A stretch of 64,000 nucleotides of DNA. Source: Beroe forskalii (taxonomy: Eukaryota > Ctenophora > Nuda > Beroida > Beroidae). The notes under the pieces are model-generated. The model ran no database searches. It saw nothing but the letters and a program-made list of their open reading frames with translations, and had not been told where the DNA came from. The DNA lies in contig WFMF01000535.1 of NCBI GenBank assembly GCA_011033025.1, positions 1-64,000 on the forward strand. Direction: 5' to 3'. Of the stretch, positions 9,201 to 61,300 are shown in pieces; the first letter of the stretch is position 1, and the number at the start of each line of letters is the position of its first letter. The translations under genes and the position numbers were made by a program.

Positions 9201-11437
9201 GGAAAACAAAGGAAAACTGGCGAATATCATTGGTTTAGTGGTTTCAGGCGCATAATTTATGACCAGATACACTTCTATTTGACCACCCATAAGACATCTA
9301 CGCCGAATAAGGGGCGAAAAAAGGCAGCATTTAAGCCGAAAAACGCGATTTTAACCCCCCATAACAGACATAAAATGGCTGATTTCGGGATCCTGAAGTA
9401 TGGTATGTCTTTCTTAGGTCGTCCATGGATGGCGTGCAAATTTTCAGCTCAATCGGCCAAAGTTTTTCGATTTCGGATCTTGGGTGCCTCAGAAATGAAG
9501 AACGTCCTGGATCACTGTTTTGAGAGGTAAAAATAGGGTTTTTTGGATTTTACAGGAAAACTGGCGACTATCATTGGTTCAGTGGTTTCAGGCGCATAAT
9601 TTATGACCAGATACACTTCTATTTCCACCCATGAGACATCTACGCCCAATAATATGTTGCTATAGTAACGTTTTTTTCAGAACCCTCTAGGTTGCTATAG
9701 TAACGTTGTTTTCAGAACCCTCTAGGTTGCTATAGTAACGTTGTTTTCAGAACCCTATAGGTATTTATCGTAACGTTGTTTTCAGAACCCTCTAGGTTGT
9801 TATAGTAACGTTGTTTTCAGAACCCTCTAGTAAACGTGAAGTTCGTGGAAGAAGAACTGACAGAGGAAAACATAGGCAACTACTCCATCGTCTGCATAAC
9901 AGGTCCATTTTACATTGACCAATCAGCGCTCTAGTTTTTGTAAAACTCACGCCCTGATTGGCGATGTATATTTCATTTGATGGACTTTATATGAGCCTAG
10001 GGGTGTTAACTTTACCATGCATCACCATGTGTTACTATGTTAGTATGTTGTTACCATGACATGTTACCATGTTACCATGCGTTACCATGCTCTCTCTGCA
10101 GACGGCACTAAGTCAGAGTACGAAGCAACTAACTCGCTGTGTCGTCGCCATGGAGTCGCCTTCCTAGCAACCAACACGTGGGGCATGGCGGGCTTCATGT
10201 TCCAGGACTGCGGAGACAAGTATTCTTACATCGCAGAGAAGGCAAAACTCATCCGGGAAAGGTATGCGAAACACGAACCCTTACTAAACTCTGAAGCGAT
10301 TTAGTATTGGGGTTTTAGGGAGATAACAGATAAGATGCAGTCACATATCAAAGTGTTATTCATCTTCTCATTATTCCTTATATGGAATAACCACTCTCAG
10401 ACCTCTGATAAGCCGGACACTAAACGAAGGAAAGTTGAGGACGAGGAAGCTGAGTTCGAGGAAAGAGAAGCTCACTTCACCCAACTCAGTGACACCGCTC
10501 CTCTTTCCAACCTAAGACATTCCTCCCCCACAGTACTCATTGCGCAAGGTTATTATGCCATATTAGGGCAACACGTGACTCCCACAGGACTCATTGCGCA
10601 AGGTTATTTTGCCATATTAGGTAAACATGTGACTTCCACTGTACTTATTGCACAAGGTAATTATTCCATATTAGGTAAACACCTGATTCCTGTTGTTCTC
10701 AAAGTTGCTCGATGTTGACTATTGCGTTTTTTCATTAACATTGGCGCCCCTTTTGAAGGCAAACTAGATGGCGCGTCAGACGTTAGCGCCTACTGTAAAG
10801 ATATGTCAGAGAAGTTGAAATGCAAGGCGGTACCATCGGACCTCTTGAGGTAAGGCAACCTTTTTAAGTTTCTACATGTCATATTGACAGAAATTATCAT
10901 CATCTTTTCTAGAGTCAAAATAATATCGTAGGTCAGACAATGTTACTATGGTGCAATGCTACCATGATTTCTATGTTACCATGGTGATTCCATGCTTACT
11001 AATTTCAGTAATGTCGAGGGTGAGCTGGTGCCAGTATGTGCTATCATTGGAGGAATAGTTAGTCAGGAAATCATCATGGAAACCAACCAATTACCGTGAC
11101 TTGGTCCGATTCAGTAGTCGTTTTTTAAGACATTGAGACTTAAGACTAGATTTCTCATACTATAAGTTCCCAAAGTTTGTTATACAGTAGAAACAACCCT
11201 CTCTGCATTGTGAAATATTTAGCCGGAACTGGACCAACGATCTCTAACTCAATATCAAATCATCATTGCACCCTCTCTACAACTCTACAATTGGGTATAT
11301 AACTCAATATCATTAACAATTTTCAGGAAATAATCAAGATAGTTAGCAAGAAAGACCCGCCTATTGTGAACAGTTTCTTCTACGATGCCTTGTCAGGGGC
11401 CGGCATCATCGAAAACATGACCGCAGCTAAACAGTAG
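284..11437 (+). CDS. SAE1: SUMO-activating enzyme subunit 1 (SAE1/AOS1), multi-exon gene
   Basis: SAE1 pairs with UBA2 to form the E1 enzyme that adenylates SUMO and starts SUMO conjugation, mainly in the nucleus. Exons: 284-403, 562-723, 9821-9902, 10102-10261, 10319-10352 (tentative micro-exon), 10401-10548, 10759-10849, 11009-11057 or 11066, 11327-11437. The ATG at 284 opens a frame with YDRQIRLWG, the N-terminal signature of E1 ThiF-fold subunits, followed by GAEVCKNIVLSGVNSLTILD at the nucleotide-binding region. Later exons give an acidic/basic linker with PDTKRRKVEDEE, then VCAIIGGIVSQEII and a C-terminal NSFFYDALSG, as in animal SAE1. Phases agree across all junctions in this model and give about 320 residues (human protein 346). 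The middle exons (10.26-10.76 kb) are the least certain. Poly(A) signal AATAAA lies at 11861. EDRF1 starts 545 bp after the stop on the same strand. Confidence 0.88.
841..9650. repeat. 354-bp satellite array in SAE1 intron 2
   Basis: About 25 head-to-tail monomers of roughly 354 bp fill nearly all of SAE1 intron 2. Landmarks recur in each unit: ATGGCTGATTTCGGGATTCT, GGTCGTCCATGGATGGCGTG, TCGATTTCGGATCTTGGGTG, AGGCGCATAATTTATGACCA. Monomers differ by point changes and small indels; one near 7.9 kb has an internal deletion. Numerous open frames of 60-240 codons on both strands are by-products of the array: they shift frame between neighbouring monomers and have no consistent start. No coding role is supported. 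Confidence 0.95.
9655..9830 (+). repeat. 35-bp array containing the SAE1 exon 3 acceptor
   Basis: Five units of the form GTTGCTATAGTAACG, then TTGTTTTCAG, then AACCCTCTAG. TTTTCAG is the real acceptor before exon 3 (9821), and AACCCTCTAG is the first 10 bases of that exon (codons N-P-L then part of V). Each unit therefore carries a complete 3' splice site plus the start of the exon. Confidence 0.85.
10537..10690 (+). repeat. 54-bp repeats containing the SAE1 exon 5 donor
   Basis: Three imperfect ~54-bp units, each beginning CTCATTGCGCAAG followed by GTTATT or GTAATT and then CCATATTAGG. The end of coding exon (CATTGCGCAAG) and its GT donor are repeated. Related sequence (CCATATTAGGTAAACACGTG) reappears at 17125-17195 inside EDRF1 intron 8, so this is also a dispersed repeat. 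Confidence 0.65.
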
Positions 11438-11982: not shown

Positions 11983-14900
11983 ATGATATTACCACTGAAA
12001 GAACCCACACATATCTCTGCCCCTTCTACATCCTTGACTCGGAACATCCCTACTCCTTCAGAAAACCAAACTTCTGCCCTTTCTCCTGACCACCAATCCC
12101 TGAAACCCTGCTCTTCATCTGACGTTGCCATGGTGACAGTCCTGGACTCCTTAAATCAGGCCTGTCACCAAGAAACAGAGAAAAGTCGGGGAAATGCAGA
12201 TGAGGAGAATTCCCGAATGCTTGCAGAGGAAGTAGGAAAAAGTGAAGAGAAATCTGGGAAACCAGACGAAACAGGAGAAAGTTCAGAAAAGAATAGTAAA
12301 CCAGAGAAAATAGGAGAAAATTCAGAAAAGATTAGGAAACCAGAGGAAATAGGAGAAAGTTCAGAGAAGAATAGTAAATCAGAGAAAATAGGAGAACATT
12401 CAGAAAAGAATAGGAAGCTGAAAGAAATTGGAGATAGTGCAGAGGAGGATAGGAAGCCGGAGTTAGTTCAGAAGATGTTCAAGACTTTGTCTATAGAAAC
12501 GGATATAAATGTAGCCCCTGTCAACTGGCTTAGAGGAGACATCATAGACAGAGGTGAGGATGGGAGGGGTTTGATTTAAATCAATGTGTGCTGACTTCCA
12601 ATTTCCTGTACTAATGAGTAATGATCCTATTTGTGGAGTTGTAGGGATGCAGATGGCATCATGCCAGCACTCTGATGCAGATGGCATCATGCCAGCACTC
12701 TGATATACCTCAGAGCCTATAACTTCCTCCTCTTTCAGTCACAGAATCCTGCTACTGGAGTGTCACTGACGCCCCTGAACTGTCCTCCATCAGAATGGCT
12801 GCACGACATTCCTGGAAACTACTGTCCGCTGACCTCATCTCAGATTCAAGGTTAGTCATGGTTACATGTGTGTTGTCACGGTGTTGTCATGGTTACACGA
12901 GGTGTTGTGATGGTGCTGTCATGGTAACTTTCTAACTTATGCATCGTGTTGTCACGGTAACACATTCAGGAACATTAAGAAGCTACTGAAGATGGACAGG
13001 GATAAGGAAGAGGTGAGCATGGCAGTGCACAGGATTGGGAAGACGCTCCTACTAGACGAATTCCCTATTGAAAGGTGAGGTGTTGTCATGGTGAGATTCC
13101 ATGGCAACGCTATACCTCCCTATTGAAAGACGAGGTTTAGCTTTGCCAACGTGTGAACTGAGGTGTAGTTTAATTCTTGATTTGTAACTCGTGTCGTTGA
13201 AGGCTGGAGATTTCACAATTTCCTGCAATGAACTAGCACGAATGAATTCACCATTTCAACTAATATTCTTGCATGTTCTCTGTGAGATGGAGTCGCCGTT
13301 CATAACTCAATGCTGGCTCTCATTACTCCTTTATAATACTCGCCCCAGGTACATACCACAACGACAAGAGAAGATGACAAAGAAAAAGAAGAAGAAGAAC
13401 AAAAGCAGCACTCACGTGAACACGATATCTAAGTTCCTTTACCACACCATCCTCCATAACAGCTACATCACTGCACCGGAGTCTAACGTTGTGGTGAGTA
13501 GAAGATATGTTTCAATCTCCAGAATCATGTTCATCGATAAGATAACTAAAGAATGATTGAATATAACTTGAGTTGGTAGGTATGAAATGAATGTTCACCA
13601 TGTGGGCATGAAAAGATGAAATGAGGAAATGTTATATAGATTTTCCTACCATCCCTTTACTCCGCACACAAAAAATAGACGGTTATTTTCAACAATTGGG
13701 CAGCGCGAACATATCAAATGACGTGATAAACATTTCGAGCGCCTATTTATTCTGCTCGCATCCCAATGTGCATGACATATAAGGAAGTGTTATTGCTATT
13801 CACCTACCATACCAGGCCCGGAAGAACTCGTTGTCAAGCAGTGACATCATGGTGGGGATGGGAGACCCCCTCTCCAAGATAACCCTGGAAGTGCCCCAGA
13901 TCCTCGACACTAAGCTCTACCCGCCAAGGGACTACAACAGGACCGTGTATTGGGACTTCGAGGATATCCAGATGCTGCTAGGTGAGATGTTGTAAACCCA
14001 CGGCGGGGTGCCACTAACTAACAAAGTGCAATCCTGGGTTCTTGAAAATACGCTCAAAAACTTGAATACCAATTCCGTGTTGTGATAGTAACAGACAATG
14101 AATACTTAACCAACGATTCCCAGGCAACAACATGCCCATTATTGGGGGTTGCTAAACTCACGTTTCCCAGGCAACAACATGCCCATATCAATATAAGGGG
14201 GTTACTTAACCCACGTTTACCAGGCAACAGCATGCCCATATTTGGGGGTTGCTTAATCCACGTTTCCCAGGCAACAACATGCCCATATTTGGCGGTTACT
14301 TAACTCACGTTTCCCAGGCAACAACATGCCCATATTTGGGGGATACTTACTAACTTAACCCACGTTTCCCAGGCAACAACATGCCCATATTTAGGGGTTG
14401 CTTAACCCACGTTTCCCAGGCAACAACATGCCCATATTTGGGGGTGGCGAGTACCCTGCCATTTCCCTCAAGTTGCGGGACATGAAGGAGCCAATCAACG
14501 TACTGACAGGGATAGACTGCTGGCTGGACAACCTCATCTGCAATGTGCCCGAGCTGGCCATGTGCTGGCACCTGGATGGCTTCGTGCAGGTTGCTGTGTT
14601 GCTATAGCAACATGCGTGTTGTCATGTGTTGTGTTCTGGTATCCTGATATTCGTTGTCATAGAAACATGTCATCATATCTCGTGTTGTCATGCTATCGCT
14701 TGCTGACACCACCTTAACATAAACAGATAAACCTCCTCCCCAGGGCTATGAACTGTATAAGACGGAAGAGATTCCTAACCTTGAGAACTGTAAGTTCGAC
14801 CCTGTGGTTATCAAGGACTTGGCTGGCAACGTTCTGAAGTTCCTGAAAGCGAGGTGTGTCAAGGAGGGCCACACTTACTGGCTTTACAGAGCCAAAGGGG

Positions 14901-17900
14901 ACGACATCGTCAAACTCTACGACCTGTCCTCCATCTGCACGGGCATGAACCTCAACGAAATCAACCCGTTCTCCACCCCCGTGGCGATGCTATGCTTCAA
15001 GGTAACGAAATCAACCCGTTCTCCACCCCCGTGGCGATGCTATGCTTCAAGGTAACGAAATCAACCCGTTCTCCACCCCGTGGCGATGCTATGCTTCAAG
15101 GTAACGAAATCAACCCTTCTCCACCCCGTGGCGATGCTATGCTTCAAGGTAACGAAATCAACCCGTTCTCCACACCCGTGGCGATGCTATGCTTCAAGGT
15201 AACGAAATCAACCCGTTCTCCACCCCCGTGGCGATGCTATGCTTCAAGGTAACGAAATCAACCCGTTCTCCACCCCGTGGCGATGCTATGCTTCAAGGTA
15301 ACGAAATCAACCCGTTCTCCACCCCCGTGGCGATGCTATGCTTCAAGGTAACGAAATCAACCCCTTCTCCACCCCCGTGGCGATGCTATGCTTCAAGGTA
15401 ACGAAATCAACCCGTTCTCCACCCCGTGGCGATGCTATGCTTCAAGGTAACGAAATCAACCCCTTCTCCACCCCCGTGGCGATGCTATGCTTCAAGGTAA
15501 CGAAATCAACCCGTTCTCCACCCCCGTGGCGATGCTATGCTTCAAGGTAACGAAATCAACCGTTCTCCACCCCCGTGGCGATGCTATGCTTCAAGGTAAC
15601 GAAATCAACCCCTTCTCCACCCCCGTGGCGATGCTATGCTTCAAGGTAACGAAATCAACCCGTTCTCCACTCCCGTGGCGATGCTATGCTTCAAGGTAAC
15701 GAAATCAACCCGTTCTCCACCCCCGTGGCGATGCTATGCTTCAAGGTAACGAAATCAACCCCTTCTCCACCCCCGTGGCGATGCTATGCTTCAAGGTAAC
15801 GAAATCAACCCTTCTCCACCCCCCGTGGCGATGCTATGCTTCAAGGTAACGAAATCAACCCGTTCTCCACCCCCCGTGGCGATGCTATGCTTCAAGGTAA
15901 CGAAATCAACCCCGTTCTCCACCCCCGTGGCGATGCTATGCTTCAAGGTAACGAAATCAACCCCTTCTCCACCCCCGTGGCGATGCTCTGCTTCAAGGTA
16001 ACGAAATCAACCCGTTCTCCACCCCCGTGGCGATGCTATGCTTCAAGGTAACGAAATCAACCCCTTCTCCACCCCCGTGGCGATGCTATGCTTCAAGGTA
16101 ACGAAATCAACCCGTTCTCCACTCCCGTGGCGATGCTCTGCTTCAAGGTAACGAAATCAACCCGTTCTCCACCCCCGTGGCGATGCTATGCTTCAAGGTA
16201 ACGAAATCAACCCGTTCTCCACCCCCGTGGCGATGCTATGCTTCAAGGTAACGAAATCAACCCCTTCTCCACCCCCGTGGCGATGCTATGCTTCAAGGTA
16301 ACGAAATCAACCCCTTCTCCACCCCCGTGGCGATGCTATGCTTCAAGGTAACGAAATCAACCCGTTCTCCACCCCCGTGGCGATGCTATGCTTCAAGGTA
16401 ACGAAATCAACCCGTTCTCCACCCCCGTGGCGATGCTATGCTTCAAGGTAACGAAATCAACCCGTTCTCCACCCCCGTGGCGATGCTCTGCTTCAAGGTA
16501 ACGAAATCAACCCGTTCTCTACCCCCGTGGCGATGCTATGCTTCAAGGTAACGAAATCAACCCGTTCTCCACCCCCGTGGCGATGCTCGCTTCAAGGTAA
16601 CGAAATCAACCTGTTCTCCACCCCCGTGGCGATGCTATGCTTCAAGGTAACGAAATCAACCCCTTCTCCACCCCGTGGCGATGCTCTGCTTCAAGGTAAC
16701 GAAATCAACCCCTTCTCCACCCCCGTGGCGATGCTATGCTTCAAGGTAACGAAATCAACCCCTTCTCCACCCCCGTGGCGATGCTATGCTTCAAGGTTTT
16801 ATCCTCCTATCAATCATTAGATTGCCAAACATCACTGCTCCTGCATCCTTTATAAACTTATAAACATTGCTCCTTTATAAGCTGAATCTCAGGTAGCACA
16901 GCGTTTGTACGAGGAAGGACGCTCAGAAGACCGGAGTACGATATACACCCTCCTCCAGAACACACTGAACCTCATTCCCCCCTCCTCCTACCCCCAAATG
17001 TCAGGAACTGCTCACTTCATGATAGCTGATCTGTTCCTGTCCAACAGCTTCCAGCTAAGCAATGAAAAGAAGATTAAACTTACAGTGCAGCCTCTATACG
17101 AGTGCCAGTGAGTTGACATGAGTTAATTATTCCATATTAGGTAAACACGTGATTCACTCATTGCACTAGGTGATTTTACCATATTAGGTAAACACGTGTG
17201 CTCACTTACTGTGTAGCTTCTATACGGGATGTTTTAATTCTACAGATTGGTTCTTGCTCACGGCTGTCGGCTATGATAGAACCTCAGTGGTAACTGTTTG
17301 TTAGGAATGGATCTCATTTGTTGATGTTTGTTAAGACTGGCTCTGATTGGTTGATGTTTGTAAAGACTGACTCTGATTGGCTGTTGTTTGTCAGGACTGA
17401 CTCTGATTGGCTGTTGTTTGTTAAGACTGACTCTGATTGGCTCCCAGGTTTGAGAACCTGCGGGATGTGTGTGAGGTATCTATTGAGAGAGATCTGCTGG
17501 ACAGCTCTTGGGACCCTCCCTTGCAGCAGTACTACTGGAAGAACATCGCCACCGACTTGAAACACCAGAAGAAGATGTCTTTGAAACACATCATCTCCGG
17601 TGGGTCACCACAAACACACACACACACACACACACAAACATACAACACATGCACACATATCTCCTTTTCCATCAGAACTTCCTCATCCCCTTTCCCTTCT
17701 AGATTTCATAAACTCACTCCAACATAGTAAATAGTTGAGATGTTCTATTCTTCTATTGTTCTTTACGTCATGTCGCAGGGAATCGAACTCGGGATCTTTC
17801 GATCACGAGACGGACCGAAAACCAATACACCAACTGACCACTACTATCTCCTCTTCAGCGCTTGAAGTGGTGGGAGGGCAGACCGACAGTTGGGCTGTCA

Positions 17901-24353: not shown

Positions 24354-24587
24354 TAGTATACTTTTATACCAATCATATACCACCTTTCAATTATTCCATG
24401 TTTTAAAAGTTTCTAGATATATTTAGACTTATAAAGCTATAAAATCATAAACCTTTTCTCTTGTCTACTGTGGATAAGATTAGTATGTGTAACACTGGTG
24501 AACCGATTGTTTTATTTCTACTCGTAACCTACACAACTATTCTTTACCTGTAGAAGTGTACTTTGAGCTTTTTTGCTATTCGCACTA

Positions 24588-24737
24588 CTTTGTTCAGCAC
24601 TACTTTGTTCAGCACTACCTTGTTCAGCACTACTTTGTTCAGCACTACTTTGTTCAGCACTACTTTGTTCAGCACTACCTTGTTCAGCACTACCTTGTTC
24701 AGCACTACTTTGTTCAGCACTCCTTTGTTCAGCACTA
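24588..24737 (+). repeat. 15-bp array containing the EDRF1 exon 14 acceptor (copy 1)
   Basis: About 10 units of CACTACTTTGTTCAG. TTTGTTCAG is the acceptor and CACTA the first exon bases (exon 14 starts CACTAAGTTTGAG at 24733). The unit is five codons and stays in the exon frame (T-T-L-F-S). Confidence 0.92.
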
Positions 24738-25130
24738 AGTTTGAGACGAGGGAGGTGAGCCTGCTCCTTTGCCTGGACCTCTATCTCGAGGCTTCCCACA
24801 ACCAGAAGGAACTAACCGTCAAGAAGCTGGGATTTGTGTACAACGAACTAGCCTCCTACAACCTCAACCTCATTTCGTTGGAGGAAGCGATCCAGGTTTT
24901 CTGTTTTCTGTATCAATCTAGTTAAATCTATTAATCTGCCGGCATAAATGTTTGCAGCAATGTTAAAGGAACGTCAAATGTAAAGATAATTTTAAAGGAA
25001 CGTGGAATGTAAAAACTTAAAAAGAATTTCAAAGGACTGTTATTTCAGCAAGACGTTGCTAAGGAGCTGTTGAAGCAAAGCTTTGAGCACTTCAAGTCCG
25101 CTCTGTCCTACTTCTCAGATTGTTCAGATA

Positions 25131-41612: not shown

Positions 41613-41614
41613 AA

Positions 41615-42712: not shown

Positions 42713-42715
42713 TCG

Positions 42716-43463: not shown

Positions 43464-43740
43464 TGTCAGTGATGTGTCAGACTTGTGTCAGTGATGTGTC
43501 AGACTTGTGTCAGTGATGTGTCAGACTTGTGTCAGTGATGTGTCAGTGATGTGTCAGACTTGTGTCAGTGATGTGTCAGACTTGTGTCAGTGATGTGTCA
43601 GACTTGTGTCAGTGATGTGTCAGACTTGTGTCAGTGATGTGTCAGACTTGTGTCAGTGATGTGTCAGACTTGTGTCAGTGATGTGTCAGACTTGTGTCAG
43701 TGATGTGTCAGACTTGTGTCAGTGATGTGTCAGACTTGTG
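43464..43740 (+). repeat. TGTGTCAGACTTGTGTCAGTGA minisatellite, copy 2
   Basis: About 16 units of 17-18 bp, uninterrupted; empty site for the LINE end found in copy 1. Confidence 0.92.
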
Positions 43741-44393
43741 CTCGGAGCAAAAATGGCGTCCAAAAATCGAAATTTTTCCTGATGGAGATAGAGCTTAGCT
43801 TTTGGTTGCATTCGATTCGTCTCGACGAGCTGATCATTTTAGTGTATTTGTTAAAATCGGATGAAAAATGGCCAAGTTATGCCCATGCGAAGCGCGCGTG
43901 CCAAAGTGGCAGTTGGCCTATTTTCGGCCTTAAGATGGCCATTTTGGCCACATTTTTGGAGATATGAGCTTCAAACTTGCTTTGCCCATCATTTAGGTCA
44001 AAATTGATGGGCAAACCAATTTTTAAGTGAATTGGACCTTATTTGGCCATTTTAGCCCATAAAAACCTTCAAAAATCCACTTAATCGCTTATATCTCAGT
44101 TTGCGCTTTTGCCCAAATGGACTTTACTCTTTTCGCTACTCCTCCGCCATTTTTCAATGTTTCTGCATGAAATTTTCAAAATCGCTTTGAAAGTAGAAAC
44201 GGTATTCTAACTCAAATTGCTGTTTTTGTGTATTTCAATGGTGCAGAGATTGGGGATTCAATCTGCCCTCTCATTACCTCATAACGTATACCTGTTGATG
44301 TGATGATCGATTTGGATAATAATGATATTGTCGGTTCATCTGAAACCTTTGTATTGTAAGTTTGTAAACCGTATTATTTTCCTATTCCCTCAG

Positions 44394-47300: not shown

Positions 47301-50029
47301 AACTAAGGTCAGCTGCTAATTAATTAACAGCTAATTACTACCACTGCACTAAGGTCAGCTGCTAATTAATTAATAGCTAATTACTACCACTACACTAAGG
47401 TCAGCTGCTAATTAATTAATAGCTAATTACTACCACTACACTAAGGTCAGCTGCTAATTAATTAATAGCTAATTACTACCACTGAACTAAGGTCAGCGCT
47501 AATTAATTAATAGCTAATTACTACCACTGCAGGTCAGCTGCAGGCTCGCTTCCACTACGGAGATAAACGAGGCCCCCTGCTTTTTGAGGAGAGGGAGTTT
47601 TACAAGGAAGCTATTGGGTACTACAACGAGGCCCTTGATACTCTCAGGAAACCTTCTGTTCAGGTTTAGAACTAGGGTAGTAGGGTGAATATTGTATTAG
47701 ATGAGGGTTGAGTTAGGTTTCAGGCTGAATTTAACGTTAGCTACTAAATCAGTAAATCATTAAATTGCTATCCAATTCGATGTCTTGGTAAGGAGTGAGT
47801 TATCTTTTCCTATGTTGCTATAACATTCTGAAAACAGTGAATACTAATAATCATCTCTCCCTAGAAAGACATCTGGTGCACTGTATCCAATGAACTATCC
47901 GGAGTTTACTTCTCTATGGCAACCATCTTACAGGTATACTTCTCCATAGCAACCATCTTACAGGTATACTTCTCCATAGCAACCATCTTACAGGTATACT
48001 TCTCCATAGCAACCATCTTATAGGTATACTTCTCCATAGCAACCATCTTACAGGTAAACTTCTCCATAGCAACCATCTTACAGGTAAACTTCTCCATAGC
48101 AACCATCTTACAGGTATACTTCTCCATAGCAACCATCTTACAGGTATACTTCTCCATAGCAACCATCTTATAGGTATACTTCTCCATAGCAACCATCTTA
48201 CAGGTATACTTCTCCATAGCAACCATCTTACAGGTAAACTTCTCCATAGCAACCATCTTACAGGTATACTTCTCCATAGCAACCATCTTACAGGTATACT
48301 TCTCAATAGCAACCATCTTACAGGTATACTTCTCCATAGCAACCATCTTACTGGCATACTTCTCCATAGCAACCATCTTACAGGTAAACTTTTCCATAGC
48401 AACCATCTTATAGGTATACTTCTCCATAGCAACCATCTTCCAGGTAAACTTTTCCATAGCAACCATCTTATAGGTATTCTTCTCCATAGCAACCATCTTC
48501 CAGGTATAGTTCTCCATAGCAACCAACTTACAGGTACACTTCTCCATAGCAACCATCTTCCAGGTATACTTTTCCATAGCAACCATCTTACTGGTATAGT
48601 TCTCCATAGTAACCATCTAACAGGTAAACTTCTCCATAGCAACCATCTTCCAGGTATAATTCTCCATAGCAACCATCTTACAGGTATACTTCTCCATAGC
48701 AACCATCTTATAGACATACTTCTCCATAGCAACCATCTTACAGGTAAACTTCTCCATAGCAACCATCTTACAGGTAAACTTCTCCATAGCAACCATCTTA
48801 CAGGTATAGTTCTCCATAGCAACCATTTTACAGGTATAGTTCTCCATAGCAACCATCTTACAGGTATACTTCTCCATAGCAACCATCTTACAGGTATACT
48901 TCTCCATAGCAACCATCTTATAGGTATACTTCTCCATAGCAACCATCTTATAGGTATACTTCTCCATAGCAACCATCTTATAGGTATACATCTCCATAGC
49001 AACCATCTTACAGGTATACATCTCCATCTAACAGGTATACTTGTGTAGTCACTACTATTTACTGATGATCTCCCTGCGCAGGATTACAGCACTGCAGAGA
49101 GTGGATCAGACAACAGTGAGTTAGTGAGAGAAGTGACTAACTACTACAACAAGTCTCTGACAATAAGTCAGGGGTTGGTGAGAGAAGGGTATACTCAAGC
49201 TGCCAGTAGAACGGGCTGCACTCACCACAAGCTAGCGAGTCTCTACCACGCCCAAGCCAGGGACACTTGGGCAGTGCCCAGGAAGAGGAAACGACTGTTT
49301 GGGTTAGCGGAGACGAATTACAAGCAAGCACTTTCTTACTTCAAGGGGAAGGTAAATGCGATATTTTCATGGGGTAACTGAAGACATTATCCAAACGCAA
49401 GCATATGTCAGATGTCTTGTTATGATTGATATCAGCCCCTTTTTTCACTCCTTAACTTGTCCTATGCCTTATGGCGATGATTAACCTTCCAATTTCTAAA
49501 ATTCTGAAAATTCCTAGGGTTTGGAGTGCATTACACCCTGTGCAATGTACACTCAACACTGATGTATTTCTAGGGTTTGGAGTTGGAGTATATCCAAGCA
49601 GCGATGGAGTACGTGGGGTTGTTGCAGTACCTCTCCCCCACCCCCAACTCAGCCTTAGCCACCTGCTGCAGCGTTCTCAGCAGTCTTAGACCCTTCCTAC
49701 TGACCTATCACGAGCTAGCGTCAAGGTCACGTGATCACAGCGAGAAACAAGTGAAGATGTTAACTTTGCTGAAGGATCAAGTGCTCTCCTTGCTCAAGAC
49801 CATCGTGATGTTGGCAAAGCAAGGAAAGCAAGTCAATGGGTTCCTCTGCGACACTAAGTCAGACAAACCCGAGGCCAGCAAGTCGCAGACTTCCAAACCA
49901 CAGGATTTGGAGTTGCGCGATGCTAAGACGATGTACGCTCAAGCCCTGAGGGTCTTTCAGAAGTTCGAGGTTGAGGATGGTATTCAGAACTTGCTTGATA
50001 GAGTGGTCGAAGTTTTATCTGTTCTGTGA
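44394..50029 (+). CDS. EDRF1: EDRF1 exons 13-19, copy 2 (intact TPR-rich C-terminal half)
   Basis: Exons: 44394-44477, 45684-45846, 45992-46127, 47533-47663, 47865-47933, 49082-49351, 49574-50029. All borders are GT-AG with matching phase, and no stop is met before the terminal TGA. Helical repeats include AKELLKQSFEHFKSALSYFS, YKEAIGYYNEALDTLRK, VTNYYNKSLTISQGLVREG and AETNYKQALSYFKGK, corresponding to the TPR region of EDRF1; the last exon is a long helical segment ending EVLSVL. On its own this copy lacks the N-terminal half, but exon 13 is in phase with exon 12 of the upstream block at 18371-18430. AATAAA at 50335. Confidence 0.82.
44757..45688 (+). repeat. 15-bp exon 14 acceptor array, copy 2 (about 62 units)
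   Basis: CACTACTTTGTTCAG repeated about 62 times, against about 10 in copy 1. Every unit ends in the acceptor TTTGTTCAG or CTTGTTCAG. All three plus-strand frames and two minus-strand frames are open over 300 codons, purely because 15 is a multiple of three; the (STTLF)n frame joins exon 14 in phase. Confidence 0.95.
46076..47051 (+). repeat. 54-bp exon 15 donor array, copy 2 (about 18 units)
   Basis: Same unit as at 25131-28411. Several units are mutated at the donor (CAGGTTAAAAC) or have one-base indels. It ends at GTAAAAACGGAGATG; the intron then continues through unique sequence. Confidence 0.95.
47052..47206. other. Intron 15 sequence between the two arrays, copy 2
   Basis: About 155 bp of unique intron sequence separates donor-side and acceptor-side arrays. 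In copy 1 this spacer is missing and the arrays touch. It may be the remnant of the original intron. Confidence 0.55.
47207..47540 (+). repeat. 46-bp exon 16 acceptor array, copy 2
   Basis: About seven units. The last reads CCACTGCAG-GTCAGCTGCAGG, a stronger acceptor than the ACTAAG of copy 1, at the same phase. Confidence 0.9.
47904..49032 (+). repeat. 30-bp exon 17 donor array, copy 2 (about 37 units)
   Basis: Uninterrupted GTATACTTCTCCATAGCAAC CATCTTACAG array; the empty site for the foldback element of copy 1. Confidence 0.95.
49512..49586 (+). repeat. Two-unit duplication of the EDRF1 exon 19 acceptor, copy 2
   Basis: CTAGGGTTTGGAGT occurs at ~49514 and again at ~49571, 57 bp apart; copy 1 has one acceptor (CTTCCAG-GGTTTGGAGT). 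Only the second leads into the long open exon; the first meets TGA. Confidence 0.8.
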
Positions 50030-51415
50030 GGGCATTGCTTTCGGTTCACTGCTGGTTTTATGAATGTTTTTAAGATCTTTAAAGTATTTATTTTAAGATA
50101 GACGTGATTTTGTGTACATTTAAATTTCCATTTATCCGTTATTTCACTATTTTGGCCTTTTGAAAACCGTAATTTAAGGAGGACTGAAAAAGGTTACAAA
50201 AATTTAAAAACGGGGTCGATGGATAATTTAATTCACCATAATTGAGTGATAAAGGAATGACATACAAAATGTGAAATGATTACTCATAAAACCTCCTGGA
50301 CAGGCTCCTAGAGGCTCAACACTTTAATCCATTCAATAAATTTTATTTACCAAAACATTATTTTCTGTGCCAAAACGTAACTTTTGTACCAAATTTGAAT
50401 GTTTTTGTGTTGTTTACGTGACGCGCGCGGTCTGGAAGATGTTGAACAGCATCGTGCACGTGAACGCAATTGCGCGCACTTGTAGAAATTAGGAGAATTT
50501 ACCAGCATGTTCCACAATGATTGATTTTCCGGTGTCATGGTATGCCCTATGATCGCACGAGCACTTTTCGGTGAAACATGGTGGAATAACGAATTAACTG
50601 TGAACATTGCGAGATTCGAACACTAGTCCTCGGAGTGAAAGTTTTACCATAACGGATTAAGCCTCTAAGCCTTAGCGTCGGTGGCTCAGAGCGGTAATCA
50701 CCGTTGGTTACAAATAAAAAGTTTATCGGAAGATCCCTGGTTCAAACGACGATGGGTCGACTGTTAATTACTTAAGATAAACACACCTTTTATTCGTGTA
50801 TTTCAACTCTGGAGTCAGCAGATTTCAAGTCATTGATAATTCTTAATATTGGTATAACGCGTATGTGTGCACATGGATCGATCGAAAGAGCACTTACACT
50901 TTTAAAGGAAGTAGTAGGGATTAACACAGCCGTTGGTCCACCCGAGAGCCACTGGATTGGTTAGTCCAATCTATAATACTGTTTCTGTTCCGCGTAGCGT
51001 ATCCTGTCACCGGGGGCTGATCGGGAAATTGTCTTAGGAAGCTCCCAAGGTGTATTTTGAAGGAGTCCAGGTCGTGTATGATGTTAACAGTAGTTCTGGG
51101 TAGTTTATTCCACAGTTTTGCAGAGCGTGTACAGCAAATGAACTGTCAAGAAGGGTCTGGGCAGCTATTGTTGCAGTCTTGTGGAGAAATGGGATCTTGA
51201 CTTTAATACCAAGTCTATTCTCGTAGAGCGCGCAAATATGAAATAACAGCGCGCGCGCAAAGGTGTAAATTTGCTTTTCATTGAAATTTGCACATTTTTT
51301 TTGACGAATCTTTCGATCGATCCATGTGCATTGTACACACATACGGGTAACAGCTAGGATTATCGATAAGGTTAGATCATTTGAATTTTGTAACAAATAC
51401 AATATCAAGTTATCT
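50030..51415. other. EDRF1 3' UTR and intergenic region, copy 2
   Basis: Contains AATAAA at 50335-50340, the two tRNA-like segments (~50610-50770) and otherwise the same non-coding text as 33800-35270. No gene seen. Confidence 0.55.
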
Positions 51416-51650
51416 GCTAACTCACCAGGCCACCCCCTTCCCTGGTATGTTGTTCCCCTATAGCTGTTCTTTGTAACCCTAAGCAAAAGGGGTAATATTA
51501 TAAGCAAAAGTAATATCATAATCAAAACGAACATAAAACATAAGAAAATGATTGAAATCTCGGTAAGAATTGCTACGGCGGTGTTACATGTTACAAAGAA
51601 CAGCTATAGGGGAACAACATACCAGGGAAGGGGTGGCATGGTGAGTTAGC
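51416..51650. mobile_element. Short inverted-repeat element (MITE-like), copy 2
   Basis: Same element as 35274-35510, with a few base differences. Confidence 0.75.
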
Positions 51651-51708
51651 GGGTGGGTGACATCTCATCTCAGGTCATTTCATCTCAGGACACTTCATCT
51701 CCCTGTCC

Positions 51709-51768
51709 TGACCCTAACCATAACCGGAACTCTAACTCTAACCCAAACCCTAACCCAGACCCTAACCT
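51709..51768 (-). repeat. Interstitial telomere-like repeats, copy 2 (empty site)
   Basis: CCCTAACC-type repeats continue through CCCAGACCCTAACC without the LINE found in copy 1. Confidence 0.7.
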
Positions 51769-52576
51769 TTGCGTAGAGTTGAAATATTGCGAGATAAAGT
51801 ATCGTGAGATGAAATTTCCGTTCCCCACACGGACAGCCTTTACCAGTGACAACTTATCCTAAATATCCAGTCATGCAGTACCACAGAGGCTGAAGATTAC
51901 GGGTCGTTTTGGGAAGTTCTGGGCCCCAATATGGCCCAAGAAGGCCGAAAAATAAAATTGATCAAATTTGATTTCCATCGACTGGAAAGTAATTATAATA
52001 GACATCCTAGGAAACATTCTGCGTGGTTTTTGCGTGAACTTGAAGTGTATCAGTATGCTAGTTACGTTACGACTCTGCCTGATGTGTACTTGTGGAGTAG
52101 GCTAATCCAGTAATTGCTTGTAGTCCAGTAATTGCTTGTACTCCTCATTGTATACTCTCCTCGTTACTCCTTTACCTCGCAACCACCCCTCATCGTAGGT
52201 ACGTTCCACCCTGTGTAAGAGTGCGTACTGTGTTCCATTCCACGCATTCTTGTGATTTTCTGGGGGTGGGGGAGGCCCCCTATCCCACCTACCCCCGGCC
52301 CTGTTATAGAGTTGTAGTATGCGCGGAATGCGCTCGGAAATGCATTTTAATCTACAAACCAGTATAACGGATTTTTATGATCTTATGTATCGCAGTGTAT
52401 TTTTATATAGACTACATTCACCTACATTTCGTTGCGTTTTTATCTCTCTGTGCAGTTAACTGATAAGCGCATGTCACACACCATTAACAACTACAAGTCT
52501 TGCAAGTGACATATACTTGGAGTACAACTAGTAACTACATTGTAATACAAGTGTACATTGGAAAGCCTCTTCTGGA

Positions 52577-54066
52577 ATGGATCACTACTCTCTAGATAGA
52601 ACACAGGACCTCTTGTTCGATGTGTCTACGATGCTGCATGAGTTTTCCCTCGAAACACAGTGTAAAGATATCAGTACAGTAGCGTCCGAAAGATTTGCGA
52701 GTGCAAAGTACAACAAAGAGGTATTATCAGTGTGGCTGGCAGAAACTTTGAAGCAACTAAAACTGCTACGATGGATTGAAAGTGTCCACAGGAAAGATAG
52801 ACGAGCTAAAAGAGGAAGTCATCAGCCTGCAGAAGCTGAAATTCAGAAACAAAGAAATTCAGAACTAAGATGAGAAGTACGTACGGTACGTACTTTTAAA
52901 TGAACCGTACTAGTACGTACTTTTTAAATCCTGGTGAAAAGTAAGTATAGGAAAATTCATGAATTATATTGCTAAACGCGGGAAAAGACGGAGCATGCGG
53001 AACAAAGAATAAATGAGGCAAATTCTAGAACTCTGCTGAAGCGTTTTAGGGCGTGATTCACGTACAAATGTGTGTAACAATAAGTATCGAACCTCCACAA
53101 TAAATTTTGATTTTCAAGAAATATTGTTCAATCGTACGCCTGGTACGGGTACGTACTTTTCAAATGGTCCGTACTAGTACGTACTTGTGGCCCGGTATCA
53201 TACGTACTTCTCATCTTAGCTTCAGAAACAAAGAAAACAATTCGATGATGCTCAGAGTGAGACGGTGGGAAAACTTCAGACTGCGCTTAAATCAGAGTTA
53301 AAGAACTACAGCGACGCTGTTACATCCAGTCTCAGTACTCAGGCCCCTAAAGTTTCAGCTAAGGAAATTGCTAGTGTCGTGAAGGATGTTGTGGCGACGG
53401 AGGACAGAAGCAGGAGCATTATCCTCTACGGTGTGAAGGAAGAGGAAAGTGAGGAGGTGGAAAAGACTGTGAGTGATGTGTTCACCAAGATGGGAGAGAA
53501 GCCCAGACATATATTTGGAATATATATTTAATGAATATAACTATTTATATTAATGTATAACCTTTTATAGGGTTTTCCTTTATGACCAAACTTGGAGTTT
53601 CTCTGGCTACTTACTTCAAGATCTCAGCTTATTTAACTAGCCCCGTATCGGGTTCTGTGGGAGATTAGGCAAGACGACGGCAGACAGGCCCCGCCACATA
53701 AAGGTCTGCCTTACGAGCAGTGATGCAGCTACAAGACTCAGGAAAAGTGGGAAAAAGTTGAGAGATGTCCCAGCAACTCGAAACGTGTTCGTGGCACCGG
53801 ACATGACCCCGGAGGAGAGAATGGAGCGGAAGAAGCTGGTGGAGCAGATGAAAGATAAGAAGAGTGCGACACCAGAGAAGCATTTCTACATCTACAAAGG
53901 CAGTATCAGGTGCAGTGACACAACCGCAACCCGCACAAAGACTGTACCCTCGACTGCTGCTCATCCTGAAGGTGTCCTGTCAACATACTTCAAGTCGTTA
54001 CTGAAAGAGGAGGAGAAAAATAAGAACTGTAGGTTGAGGACTCAAGCAAATGGCGTGAAATCTTGA
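52577..54066 (+). pseudogene. LINE ORF1, interrupted
   Basis: Remains of an ORF1 related to, but clearly different from, the intact one at 35920-36792. The block order is the same (coiled coil, RRM-like core, APDMTPEER-type C-terminal motif). It is broken by a frameshift before 52800, a MITE at 52868-53216 and a ~150-bp AT-rich insertion at ~53508-53655 that splits the EKPR-RLGKTTADRPRHIKV junction. Confidence 0.75.
52868..53216. mobile_element. 349-bp MITE with TA target duplication
   Basis: Terminal inverted repeat AGATGAGAAGTACGTAC with its complement at the right end, flanked by TA on both sides (52866-52867, 53217-53218). GTACGTACTTTT motifs recur inside in both orientations. TA duplication suggests the Tc1/mariner group. 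Confidence 0.82.
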
Positions 54067-54243
54067 GCACGTTTCGCAGCCACGCATTTGTAGCGTTTTG
54101 AGTGTGTTTTCAAGTCAGACCGTTGTGCGACAACTTTGCTTACCAGGAACATTTTTATTTATGATTATTCTATGTTTATATGTCTGACATTACGTTATAT
54201 TGTAATTTGACATTGTATATTATATTTCTATTTCTATTTCTAT

Positions 54244-55352
54244 AGCAATCATATAAGTCAAAGGAATGCTCATTTTTCCTTTTATCTTAGCCTCATTTGT
54301 TAGGCGGTTGATGACGTCATTATCTTAGCTTAGAGTGGAGAATTGATGACGTCATTATCATAGCTTAGAGTGGAAAATTGATGACGTCATCATCACAGTT
54401 CCTCCTGGTGTGTTAACACGCCGCCTGGGTCTCTTGGTGTGTGGAATGTAGTACATTGCTATTGTTGCCCGATCTAATTACCGCACATAATAACAGTCTC
54501 CTGTTCCCGTGTGTGTTGGAACTCTGCCAAACTCTCCCCCTTTCTATGAGAACATAGCCCTTTCTTTTGTACATTTTCTGTTTCATTTTCCGAGATTTGT
54601 CATTGCTGAGTGCCTATGACTCTATGAGTATGATTTATGAACGCTGTGATTTTAAAACCCTATTATTAAGAGATTTGATATGATTGCTTCATGCTCATAG
54701 CTTCATGCTATCATAGCTTATCCCTGGTTTAAATTTAAAAGATCTCCTGTATAATGAGATACACTGCGTGTATAGCATTACAATAGAAGGATTTAGGATT
54801 GGTTAGTAGGGGCAGCCTCTCTCTCTAGGAGCTCTAGGCGGGATTAGGTTCTGTTAAAGTGAGAAGGGCCGTATTTGAATATGTACAATTAAAGGGCTCG
54901 TGAGAATATCATATTTATTGGTTGAACTAGTCGTTTTTCCGTTAAACTTTAGAACTATCTCTGAATCAAATTTTGTGATTGATAAGGGTTCTTTTTCTTT
55001 GTCTTCTTAATTCGATCATTCAATCTTGCTTCATCATTTTTCCCTCTTCAAGTTCATACTCATAGCTTCATAGAGTGTGCTTTAACTGCTTTATCTTGGG
55101 TCCTGGATCCCACCATTGTGTGAAATGTCTGAATGCTGTAATTGAAGTATCTATTGCTCTACTGCTCATTTTAAAGCTTTCTGATCGCAGTAGGACAATG
55201 GTGCAGGCAAGATTGGGAACATGAATTGGACACTGAGTAACACTGATCCACACTGAGTAGTTACAAGGAGACAAGGGTTAGGGATTGAACTGCACTGTAC
55301 AGTAAGCACTGAACAGTGAGCACTGAACACTGGGCACTAACAGTGAGCAGAA
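54244..55352. other. Upstream region of the death-domain gene
   Basis: Contains three TGACGTCA sites, then AT-rich sequence and a short minisatellite (55300-55348) ending just before the ATG. The promoter probably lies here. Confidence 0.5.
54312..54389. promoter_or_regulatory. Triplet of CRE/ATF palindromes
   Basis: TGACGTCA at 54312-54319, 54347-54354 and 54382-54389, spaced 35 bp, each preceded by ATTGA or GTTGA. The middle one is TTACGTCA in copy 1. About 1 kb upstream of the ATG. Confidence 0.5.
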
Positions 55353-58300
55353 ATGAGTGAACTGAAGAGTTCCGGATCTCGGGATGATATCAACACTCTC
55401 CTAAACCAGATAAGAGGTAGGAGCACTTCTGTTGTCATGGTAACAGTGTAACCTTGGTAATATGTGGTGATCTGTTATTATGGATACTATAGGGTGAAGT
55501 CTATGAATACTATTTGAATGAAGTCTGTGAGTTAAATGCACCTTCCCTGTTCACACATGTCACCATTCTCTTTCCTAAAGCACACCCTTCCTTTTAGACA
55601 TTGCAGATGAGAACAGGAAGACGTTGGATAATATAAAAGCAATTAAGCTGCGGAACGACGAACTGGCGGCCATTTCAAAGGAGCTGCCGCCTCCAGACAC
55701 TTCTTCACCGGAAATGTGAGAAATTTTATGTCTTATCTATTAACTGATAAACTGCTAAAAACGATAACCTACAGCTTGATAAAAGATAGATGTCGATTTA
55801 GTTACCATGGCAATGTCGTTACTTTACTTCAGTTGCCATGGCAATGCCTGACGTCTGTACACTTCATTCATTAACCATGGCAATGCCTGTACACTTCATT
55901 TCAGTAACGAGATAAACATTCCTTACCACACGGCGCCTGCACCGGGGTTGACATCGGCTGAAATCGAACTCAGAAGGAGCAAAGATGATCCCATCGAGAT
56001 ACCAGGTGATTGAAGTGGTGTCAGAGTAGAATGGTGTCAGAGCAAAGTGGTGCCAAAGCAAAATGGTGTCAGAGCAAAGTGGAGACAGGATAGAGTGGTG
56101 TCAGTGTAGAGTGGTGTCAGAGCAAAGTGGTTTCAGAGTAGAGTGGTGTCAGAGCAGAGTGGTGTCAAAGTAGGATGGTGTCAGGGCGAAGTAGTGTCTG
56201 AGTATAGCGGTGTCAGAGAATCAGAGTAGATTGGTGTCAGAGCGAAGTGTTGTCAGAGTAGAGTATACTTATAGCGGTGTCAGAGTAGAGTTGTGTCAGA
56301 TTAAGAAGCTTCGAGTCGACTTCGACTGGTGTCAGACCTTAGTGGTTTGGGTATCAGAGTATGGTGTCACAGTAGAAGTAGAACAGTTTTAGATTAAAGT
56401 GGTGTCAATGTAGAGAAGTCTCGCAATTAAAGTTTATCAAAGGTTAATGATTTCTGAATGGAATTGTGTCCATAGCGTCTAAGCTAAATAGCTTTATTTA
56501 TCACTTTTAGAACTAAAAACATATAATTTTAATCTTTAAACCAACTCTCCCCGGCTACTAGATACTGAGGCTGAGACTCCCAAAACAGAGAAAGCGGGGG
56601 GAGACGGGGAGGATCCTAGGAGTCCCACTGAGAGTGGTGAAAGTGAGATGGACCCAACCCACTCGAATGGTGAGGAGTGTGAGATGGACTCAACCCACTC
56701 TACTGGTGAGGAGTGTGAGATGGACTCAACCCACTCGAATGGTGAGGAAAGTGAGGAGGACTCTGATTCACCACTCCACACTTTTGAGGATGATGCGGCT
56801 TCTGATTCGTCACTGGAAGTTAATCTGCCTTCAGAACCACCGCTGCTTGCTCCTGATTATGACGACAACCAATCAAACAACTCTACCAGAGGTGGGGACC
56901 AATCAGAGTGCGAGATGATTGATGACGAACAACCAATAGAAAGACAGGATGAGGAGGATTTTGGAGACAAGCCAGGGAAGGAACCTGGTGGTGTCGTACT
57001 CCCCTCTGAACCAGGCGATGTTTCCCCTCTGGAGGAGGAAGAAGCGCCCTCTGAAAGTGAGGACTTCACTCCCCTGGAGGTGGTTCCACTGAGTGAGGCT
57101 GAAGAGGAAGACAGAGCAATGGCATCCTCTGAGGAAGAAGACAGAGCAATGGCATCCTCTGAGGAAGAAGACAGAGCAATGGCATCCTCTGAGAAAGCAC
57201 CTGCAGGAGAGTTGAACTGTGAGCCAGAGGGGCAAATTCCGAGAGGGAGGAACAGGGGAAGGAAGAAGGGTGGAACTCCAGTCAGTGAGGGAAAGGAATC
57301 TGATACAGCACAGCAGCGCGGAGATGGCGAGGAGCCCATTCCAAAGGAAATTCCAGGAAATGGCCCTCACTCAAGGAACAGACGAGACCCAGCCGCAAAA
57401 GGAACCGAACTAGGCAAGGATGAGTCTCGTAAAGAACCAGGGTCTAGCAAGGATGAGCCTCGTAAAGTGCCAGGGTCTAGCAATGATGAGTCTCGTAAAG
57501 AACCAGGGTCTAGCAATGATGGGAAGGTTTCAGCACATGGCAATGATGGGTCTCGTAAAGGGGTCTTGATATCCCTGAAGATGTTTGTTTCTATGGAATC
57601 TGCATGTAACTCTATCTGTGATGTATGTTTCTATAGAATCTGTAACTATGGCAACATGATATTGTTACTACGGTAACTTGTGTAACCATGGTAACATGTG
57701 TAACCATGATAACATGTTTTCTAATGAGGAATGACTGCTACTCTACCCAAACAGTCTTTCTCTTCAGATCAATGATAATTCACTGATTCTTGTAGTTGTA
57801 CGTTGTATTTTGGTGATGAAACTCATTAAGATGAAATTTCTTTCTGTGTCTTCAATCTACAGTCTATGAATTCTATATAGTTCTTTCATGATTATTTTAA
57901 ATTTACATAATCATTAATCATGATATTTCCTGAACCACGAATAATTCTTTTCTTATAATTGTCCAACTCAAAACCCAATCCATATCATTTAACAATGCAT
58001 GGTTCTTTCAGCGGGTTATACGGGAAACCTAGTCTTACACGAAAGTACAGAGTATACTTTTCAGAACTGATGATAACTGTTTATCTATACTTTTATCTTT
58101 ATTTTCAACTCCTATTTCAGTAAAATATAGCGGGGTTGAAATTTGAATTGAACTCCGACAAACGTCTCAATTCTCACTTTTCTGTAAATAACTGCACGGA
58201 GAAAACTCCAATTCCTCCAATAAATGTCCTTTCAGCTCTATATCAAGTGAGTCACCGCCTGTATATTTGCAGATATCCCTGATGACGCCCCCGACCAATC

Positions 58301-61300
58301 AGCAGAGGAGATGCCTACAGTAGCAACGTGTGAAGTTGGGCCTCTGGAGTCTGCCTTGGAACCAGAAACCAGGAAAGAGAGGAGTGAGGAAGAAGGGACC
58401 ATGGAACCAAAAACCAGGAAAGAGAGGAGTGAGGAAGAAGGGACCATGGAACCCACCATCCAGGGAGGAGATTAGAGAGAAAAGGAGGGAAAAGAGTGTG
58501 GAGAGAAAACGTTTGTCTTTTTGATATTTGGTATTTCTGTATTTTTACCCTAACCGGAACCCCACCGCTCATGTAAACCTACGTTAACAAGGCTTCATTT
58601 ACTCACGCCCTGATCGTCACCAGTGGGATGATAACAGTGTTCAATTTGCAGGGAAGCTGGAAGAAATGCGGAGGCGCAGGAGCGAGAGACGAAGTAAGAA
58701 GGATGAGACAGTGCCAACTGGCACAGTGCCAACTGGCACAGTGCCAACTGGCCCGGTGGATACGCATTCCATCCAGCAGGAGACGCCTGATTACTCCGTG
58801 GAATACAGTAGGCAACTTCTCAATGATCTGAACTTCATTTTGTCATGAAATGTCACACGGAGCTGTAAAACATGGAAATTATTTCTCATGATGAAATATT
58901 TCTCATGAATCTACTGCCTAGAATGTGCAGCTCATGTTTCACTTGAGATAAAACATGTTCCTCGATGAGTGTGTTGCTGGTTTGAATAACTTCCACTTTA
59001 GGTGTTTCCTGTGTTGATACTCTATACAGAGACTTTATAAAGGAGTACTCTCTGGAGACCGAGTTCCTACCCCCTCCCTCCCCCTCCTCCTCCTCTTCCT
59101 TTTCTCCATCTCAATCTGCACAATCTCAGCCTGCAGAGCTGTTCCCACCTGAAGCATCCTACCACCAGGGTAAATTTTAATCAGTTGCACTCATCCCTCG
59201 TCAGTATTTGGATTGACAATGTGTACCATTTCCCGTGCAATCAGTATCATTGGATTCTTCACATTCCTAACTATGAATTCCTCCAGGAGCTCCTTTGCTG
59301 CGACAGAGCGCCCCTCAAAAGAGGGAAGATACTCCCAAACATCACATGCCGCAAACCGAGGAACTCAGGAACTCGTTACCTAGCAACCAAGAACTCCGTA
59401 ACCTCATACCCAGCAACGGGAAACGGCGCATTATTGTGGAAAAATGTCCTGATTGCGAGGGAAGAGGTGAATAGATGCTTCAGAAGTTGCATTACATTTC
59501 ATTGACACCACGCCACTTACACCACTCAATTGACACCACTCATTTGAGCTTGGCACCGTATCAATATGACAACACTCACTACTCTGACACCACATCTCTC
59601 TGAGACCATGTGTTACCATGGTAACGCAGGTCGCAGTTCACTTGGTCCGATTCTCCCAATTACCATGGTAACACAGTTCACTTCGATTCTCCCAATTACC
59701 ATGGTAACACAGTTCACTTTGTCAGACTGTCCCTGTTTCCATGGTAAAACAGTTCACTTTGTCAGACTTTCCCTGTTACCATGGTAACACAGTTCACTTT
59801 GTCAGATTCTCCCCCGGAGATTGAGATTCGAATAACTCGCCGGTCAAGGAGCTGCAGAAGATTCCGACCAGACTTGCACAAGGCCTCAGAAGATGCTCCG
59901 GATTTGAAGTCTGACAGCATGCTCAACACTCCAGGTAAATAAAGATGATGGGAATGTGTGCCTATCTTAAACCTTTCCGCCAAGTTTCAATTTGAAGATC
60001 ATAACATCATAAGGATTAGATGGAGAAATTCCAACATTTAGTATTTCCCATTCCTTAGTGAGACCACTCTTTTGACTATTTACGAATTAACTCAGATGTG
60101 CCGGAGAGATCCAAATCCCCCTCTGAGATGGAGATTGAGCGACTGACCCTCAGACTGCAGGAGCTGAAGCAGGAAGTAAAGAGAGTCCTGAAGGTCCAGG
60201 AAACGAGCTACGAGTGAGTTATAGCTTTATAGGGTTTAATTTCATCATGAAATGAATATTAGTGAAATTCCTAGAAGTTTAACTCATGCAAGCTGTCATG
60301 TCATCATAAAGTCCCTTCCCAGACGTTGTCTGGCGATCGCGCGAAGGAGGCCAGGCACTGGCAATGTCTGGCAAAGAGTACCCTGTTCCTTTAACAGTTG
60401 AATAGAGGTGTAAATCATATCTTATTCTTATAAGCAGTTTTCTGAAGTCACCTGTTCCTTTTAACAGCAATTCTTCTCAGGAGGGACGGCAACATGTCCT
60501 CATCCCACCCTGAGTCTGAGTGTGGGAGAGTGTACCACCCCCAACTGGCAGAACAGCGCCCCCTCACCCTCTCCACCCACTCCCTCACCTCCTCCTCATC
60601 GGAGGAGAGTGAGGAGGAGGAGGAGGAGGAGGAGGAGGAGGAGGAGGATGGGCAAGTCACCATGGAGGTGGAATCCCTCCCTGAGCATTACCAAGCTCCC
60701 CAGCCTGTCTACTCAATGGCTCTCAAACAGGTGCAATCTGCTCCTAACCTCCCGCCCCGCGACCAATACGATCCTGAGTGTGATTCTGCTTACCATGGCT
60801 ACCATGACCCCGGTTACCATGGTAACCATGGTTACCATGACAAGAAAAGGGAGGAGGAGCTGCTGACGCCGCCTCCCCGGGACATAACCCTGAGAAATGA
60901 TTGCTTGTACGACCCTTTCCACATCGGCACTACCTACGTCGTGTTGTCCAGGCAGAACCACGGGAGGTTTAATTACGATGTGCCTGCGGACCCTGACAGA
61001 AAGTCACCAGCTCGCTCTTCTGCAGACCTGCCCTCTGAAAACTCACACTTCAAACCCCTCTCCTCCGCCCCACCCACTCCTTCTCTCAGCCCTGGGTCCC
61101 GCAGGAACTTATACCAGCCCAAGTCTCTCAACTCCAGCAGTCTCAGCTTGAGGGCTGATGTTTCCAGGGAAGACGAGAACATCAAAATGCCACCTTCACC
61201 AGCGCTGACATCTGCATCCTCTCCAACCCGTCCATCCCCTCTCCCGTCCACTCCTGTCCCATCTACACCTCCCCCTGTCCCATCCCCTCCCAGCAGTCTC

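Follow-up and report, generated by a model that had tools for sequence, protein, structure and literature searches.

Tandem arrays whose repeat unit carries a real splice site together with adjoining exon bases were found at exon-intron boundaries of SAE1 and EDRF1 in the window, that is, the whole 64,000-nucleotide (nt) stretch analyzed here (positions 1-64000 of the 113-kb contig WFMF01000535.1, from an assembly of 216 Mb in 1134 contigs), and in three of the four genes considered outside it, namely iPGM, EEF2, and mtEFG1. These junction arrays are likely to be minisatellites that arose from boundary-blind tandem duplications in genes with small introns and were then amplified, and they are probably neutral. 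Since the number of junction-spanning arrays lies within error of the boundary-blind expectation, targeting of the junctions is not needed to explain the counts and is regarded as unlikely.

Junction arrays in EDRF1 and SAE1

Tandem arrays were called by Tandem Repeats Finder (TRF), which gave 87 rows across the window, and EDRF1 exons were placed by tblastn with two relatives (P0001 and P0002) together with a custom spliced profile alignment; the protein search covered lengths of ~317 to 1010 residues, P0001 being the best match within that range. The sequence-only reading that preceded this work had described arrays on exon-intron boundaries in three genes, with the true donor or acceptor inside the unit. 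Six of the window's arrays, one at SAE1 exon 3 and five in EDRF1, retain that description, each unit holding a homology-supported splice site and 9 to 49 exon bases (features lie on the forward strand unless otherwise stated).

Within EDRF1, an acceptor-spanning array of seven 47-bp units (14103-14445; ~25 exon nt per unit, splice core in 6/7 units) overlaps the acceptor at 14420, where an exon beginning with GNNMPIFGGGEYPAISLKLRD (14420-14589) was located by tblastn with P0001/P0002 and by spliced alignment. The exon at 14744-15001, placed by tblastn and spliced alignment, ends in NEINPFSTPVAMLCFK, and its donor at 15001 is spanned by an array of 37 units of 50 bp (14954-16797), each consisting of 48 exon nt plus GT. 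The exon end NPFSVPVAMLCFK is single in P0002 and joined there directly to VAQ, while in P0001 NPFSTPVALLCFKVAQ occurs once per half of a 230-residue internal repeat; the 50-bp repeat is not present at the corresponding place in either relative. Because one exon continues into the next in both relatives with no such repeat, the 37-copy array would most simply be intron.

Farther along, the exon at 25049-25184 (spliced alignment) ends in NIALIYSNLGKVMRIS, and its donor at 25184 is spanned by 60.6 units of 54 bp (25136-28411), with 49 exon nt plus GTAAA in each. This tract is followed by 25.5 units of 46 bp (28434-29596; 37 intron and 9 exon nt, core in 19/25 units) over the acceptor at 29588 of the exon beginning with GQLQARFHYGDKRGPLLFEE (29588-29718, spliced alignment), for which a DNA search of the assembly yielded two copies, both within the window's contig. 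The fifth EDRF1 array comprises 14.7 units of 30 bp (29953-30393; 27 exon nt plus GTA) spanning the donor at 29979 of the exon at 29911-29979, which was placed by spliced alignment and ends in YFSMATILQ. Its right half (32419-32866, recognized by TRF and unit identity) had earlier been counted as an independent acceptor array of exon 17; the unit is the same as that of the exon 16 donor array, split by an insertion, and that part of the claim was withdrawn. The acceptor proposed for EDRF1 exon 12 within a 15-bp array (24582-24737), in a poorly conserved region and based on reading frame only, could not be confirmed. Translation of the arrays as coding repeats was also considered and was rejected on account of frame breaks and stops. 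Near the EDRF1 N terminus, 39-bp tandem repeats (12224-12462) occur in an open frame as a 13-residue repeat.

At SAE1 exon 3, five units of 35 bp (9656-9830) each contain 25 intron and 10 exon nt, with the exon starting at ~9821 and the TTCAGA core kept in all five. The array at 10527-10690 near SAE1 exon 5 is a plausible junction array at a candidate boundary. Between the exons taken to be SAE1 exons 2 and 3 lies an 8.8-kb satellite array of 354/355-bp units (846-9652), and ~13 residues expected in this interval from human SAE1 were not located in a by-eye check. In the third gene of the window, an array at 56014 appears to begin within an intron, and the array at 59634-59813 may hold an acceptor. 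This gene had been read as encoding a death domain; scanning of 10 pieces gave no death domain and only two sub-threshold Pfam matches, so that its boundaries were dropped as evidence.

Comparison with boundary-blind seeding

Across 159 kb in 16 stretches, five of them the remainder of the window's contig, arrays made up 16% of the sequence, and thus tandem repeats are common in this genome. The 16 stretches were placed without regard to content except for the five beside the window; iPGM came from one of them and was picked for conserved open reading frames (ORFs) in an ORF survey of these stretches, after its repeat table was visible. CLTC and EEF2 were picked before sequence inspection, and mtEFG1, an EF-G-like gene, was by-catch of the EEF2 query. 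SAE1, the third gene, and GLDC (a single exon with good alignment) were left out of the intron and array counts. A total of 53 introns were called in the five genes EDRF1, EEF2, iPGM, CLTC, and mtEFG1, and 40 were retained after exclusion of those with a weakly aligned flank (EDRF1, 4/16; EEF2, 6/11; iPGM, 3/7), all introns of CLTC (11/11) and mtEFG1 (8/8) being kept. An array was scored as spanning when it contained at least 5 exon nt, or when its unit contained the 8+2-nt junction word with at most one mismatch.

The pattern proved to extend beyond the window, as had been supposed. A donor array of 24.4 units of 36 bp was found in iPGM, and acceptor arrays were found in EEF2 (77-bp unit, 26 exon nt) and mtEFG1 (TRF period of 244 bp, with a shorter inner period judged by eye); none of the 17 arrays in the N-terminal half of CLTC spans a junction. 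The EEF2 array was scored through the word rule, as its TRF row stops ~220 nt short of the exon, at whose boundary an additional copy forms the true junction. Its 6.2-kb intron (800-7021 in gene orientation; L029-L031) carries copies of the acceptor and exon start at both ends with other repeats between them, and the outermost intronic copy, preceded by a different tract, lies ~180 nt from the donor. Since this outer acceptor copy is so close to the donor, the intron probably grew from a small ancestral intron that was opened by insertions.

Exon-derived copies in the introns are related to exon ends beyond chance. In the retained set of introns, copies of the 16-mers that end or begin an exon were found in the neighboring intron for 5 of 40 donors (one of them, 13075, with a single partial copy) and 3 of 40 acceptors, a rate of 8 in 80 junctions. 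None of 294 exon segments at least 40 nt from a donor and none of 411 at least 16 nt from an acceptor recurs in the intron, and the reverse-complement control gave 0 of 985, the test 16-mers being overlapping and not independent. This test misses the 46-bp array, whose units hold 9 exon nt, and the 31-bp mtEFG1 array, which reaches 2 nt into the exon.

Under blind seeding, the probability that an array spans a junction (by no fewer than 5 nt of exon and 2 nt of intron) was taken as 2(u-6)/(L+u-3), where u is the unit and L the collapsed intron length. Because the array-free introns are small (median, 203 nt; n = 21; 146 to 322 nt in 18 of them), duplications of 30 to 80 bp would often include a splice site, and a blind duplication of 30 to 77 bp takes in the site and at least 5 exon nt with a probability of 0.21 to 0.51. 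After de-duplication, in which arrays split by insertions were merged (44 rows to 38 arrays), 8 of the 38 span a junction versus 5.76 expected (P = 0.17), and outside the window 3 of 29 do so versus 2.23 (P = 0.39). If the intron is set at 200 nt wherever the collapsed length is <600, the expectation becomes 4.88 (P = 0.08), and 2.50 outside the window (P = 0.48). The sequence-only reading had argued that random minisatellites would not land on so many boundaries and had inferred a process that amplifies segments spanning junctions; with counts that match blind seeding within error, neither argument is supported.

Several observations weigh against boundary-blind seeding. Unmerged rows span more often than predicted (10/44 versus 5.77; P = 0.02), the more so with present intron lengths (3.18; P = 0.0001); outside the window, the corresponding figures are 4/33 versus 2.35 (P = 0.16) and 1.71 (P = 0.06). 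When arrays that approach a junction to within 5 nt are also included (a cutoff chosen after the data had been inspected), the count is 12 of 38 versus 7.39 (P = 0.02), or versus 6.24 with the intron set at 200 nt (P = 0.006); outside the window it is 5 of 29 versus 2.79 (P = 0.10) and 3.17 (P = 0.17). In a pattern not expected from uniform seeding, the donor units of three of four arrays contain only 2, 5, and 3 intron nt; that of the fourth contains 16. With uniform breaks, the single-array chances are 0.02, 0.08, 0.08, and 0.5. In addition, the merging of split arrays and the ancestral intron lengths estimated by hand (177 nt for EEF2 and 87 nt for the EDRF1 intron with the 30-bp array) are analyst choices that favor neutrality, units were likewise entered by hand for an EDRF1 array (47 bp; TRF, 149) and the mtEFG1 array (48 bp; TRF, 244), and 38 arrays in five genes give low power.

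The excess in unmerged and junction-abutting arrays and the donor breakpoints would be explained if an R-loop, a co-transcriptional break, a spliceosome-linked event, or proto-splice microhomology started duplications at the junctions. We regard this as unlikely, given the fit of the de-duplicated counts both overall and outside the window, the CLTC arrays, none of which spans a junction, and the exon lengths in the four acceptor units, which vary (9, 10, 25, and 26 nt). The breakpoints 2 to 5 nt into the intron, seen post hoc in a set of four arrays, constitute a weak lead, and it is equally doubtful that duplications drawn to junctions at such a donor position, through transcription or splicing, drive intron growth throughout the genome.

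Origin, decay, and copy number

Boundary-blind duplication would account for the arrays in the following way, in which we infer the duplication mechanism, neutrality, and the site used by splicing. A tandem duplication of ~30 to 80 bp would arise without regard to boundaries in a gene whose array-free introns are mostly 146 to 322 nt long. One lying inside an exon would usually be purged by selection, and one lying inside an intron would be neutral. A duplication straddling a splice site would be tolerated, and its extra copies would become intronic, because splicing can use the exon-proximal copy (the first donor or the last acceptor). Slippage or unequal exchange may then multiply the unit, homogenize the inner copies, and lengthen the intron, leaving decoy sites to decay.

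Arrays form the bulk of several introns, which bears out the earlier suggestion of intron growth. The predicted fields of decoy sites are also abundant, the splice core being present in 58/60, 37/37, and 18/18 units of three young arrays (the 54-bp array, the 50-bp array, and the counterpart of the 54-bp array in a second EDRF1 copy described below). It is kept in 7/14, 6/14, and 27/37 units of the older 30-bp array, the first figure being that of 29953-30393. The conservation of the proximal unit and the decay of the inner ones were followed by translation in one array: the exon-proximal unit of the 30-bp array reads YFSMATILQ in both EDRF1 copies, and in copies 1 and 2, respectively, its Met is present in 2/14 and 1/37 units and stops occur in 4/14 and 13/37.

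A selected function, in which the arrays would provide in-frame repeats or alternative splice sites (donors or acceptors), is improbable. The 54- and 30-bp units are multiples of 3 and keep the frame, most units of the young arrays retain the core, and boundary repeats can alter splicing in duplicated human genes (PMC2812944). Against this, the arrays contain indels and stops, the 50-, 46-, 47-, and 35-bp units break the frame, the 50-bp repeat is missing from the relatives, and the core has been lost from much of the older 30-bp array.

A segment comprising the 3' half of EDRF1 and the beginning of the gene that follows occurs twice in tandem (18681-42042 and 42252-55787), with 88 to 97% identity and large indels; either the segment is truly duplicated or the assembly has joined two haplotypes. 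The second copy contains counterparts of the 54-bp donor array (46079-47052, 18.1 units versus 60.6 in copy 1), the 46-bp acceptor array (47226-47529, 6.6 versus 25.5), and the 30-bp donor array, which is unbroken there (47907-49027, 37.4 versus 14.7+14.9). The insertion that splits the 30-bp array in copy 1 (30394-32418, no strand assigned) is a foldback element without a counterpart in copy 2; it has 35-nt perfect inverted ends, and inverted 11-bp arrays occur in its interior. Both of its flanks read CAACCATC, which is either an 8-bp target duplication or the 30-bp array's own sequence. P0001, the closest EDRF1 match among proteins of ~317 to 1010 residues, contains an internal tandem duplication of ~230 residues, so that a relative, too, shows duplication (or misassembly) of part of EDRF1. 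The CLTC N-terminal half is present twice, inverted, in one contig (G000:C784, 28.6 to 45.0 kb on the minus strand and 49.3 to 66.0 kb on the plus strand), the EF-G-like gene also occurs twice in one contig, and large inverted repeats with arms 71 to 99% complementary were seen in L009.

It is very improbable that array length and the doubled EDRF1 half are assembly artefacts from two misassembled haplotypes: the tandem segments with 88 to 97% identity, the location of both copies of one EDRF1 exon in the window's contig, and the paired CLTC and EF-G-like genes could be so explained, but junction-spanning units are found on other contigs and in both EDRF1 copies, and an artefact alone would not create units that straddle splice sites.

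Relation to known boundary repeats

The sequence-only reading knew of no such arrays as a general pattern; boundary-spanning repeats have in fact been described in lancelets and humans. In lancelets they were named "mirages," and reverse transcription-PCR showed regular splicing (PMC3087553); a later report added PGBD5 and cited Adh and TnC (PMC3902484), so that Adh, TnC, globin, and PGBD5 genes are represented in the two sources. As in these reports, the present arrays combine a tandem unit containing a real donor or acceptor and exon bases with many AG/GT decoys, undergo concerted evolution that spares the edge units, and affect both 5' and 3' boundaries. Mirages vary in copy number between alleles or individuals; here copy number differs between the two EDRF1 copies, which may be alleles, a tandem duplication, or a misassembly. 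Mirage units are ~10 to 160 bp, compared with 30 to 77 bp for eight arrays here and a TRF call of 244 bp for mtEFG1. Unlike mirages, the present arrays reach up to 60 units, and a donor array and an acceptor array come together within a single intron. Regular splicing would be expected here, with indirect support from the EDRF1 relatives that lack the repeat. A lancelet host seems unlikely, as the identity to human proteins of the CLTC N-terminal half (74%, 438/588) and EEF2 (68%, 567/835) looks low for one. The identifier of P0001 is in a style used for a comb jelly, which is no proof of origin.

In segmental duplications of the human genome, minisatellite-type repeats likewise lie where exons and introns meet, with 27 intron modifications (PMC2812944), and they resemble the present arrays in their units of ~30 bp, variation between paralogs, and elongated introns. 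The human cases concern recent paralogs, novel introns, and changes of splicing, whereas conserved housekeeping genes are also affected here. The Rogers model (cited in PMC3087553), in which introns are gained when AGGT segments are tandemly duplicated, and the gains by tandem duplication in Drosophila (PMC2891723) and in a potato RdRp gene (PMC4974935) similarly involve copying of splice-site sequence, whereas existing introns lengthen here. Unit size, slippage-like growth, and homogenization are those of ordinary intronic minisatellites, from which the present arrays differ in that the unit holds exon sequence and a splice site; junction arrays may thus be the subset of minisatellites expected in small introns. 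No test against blind seeding was found in the parts of PMC3087553, PMC3902484, PMC2812944, and PMC2891723 drawn on here, and one may exist elsewhere.

The kind of array is therefore already known, and what is added here is another lineage (probably), a rate, and a neutral test. The blind-seeding null provides a benchmark that later surveys must exceed before junction targeting is invoked. For the biology of the host, the arrays offer natural tests of splice-site choice among dozens of near-identical sites and represent one route by which introns lengthen.

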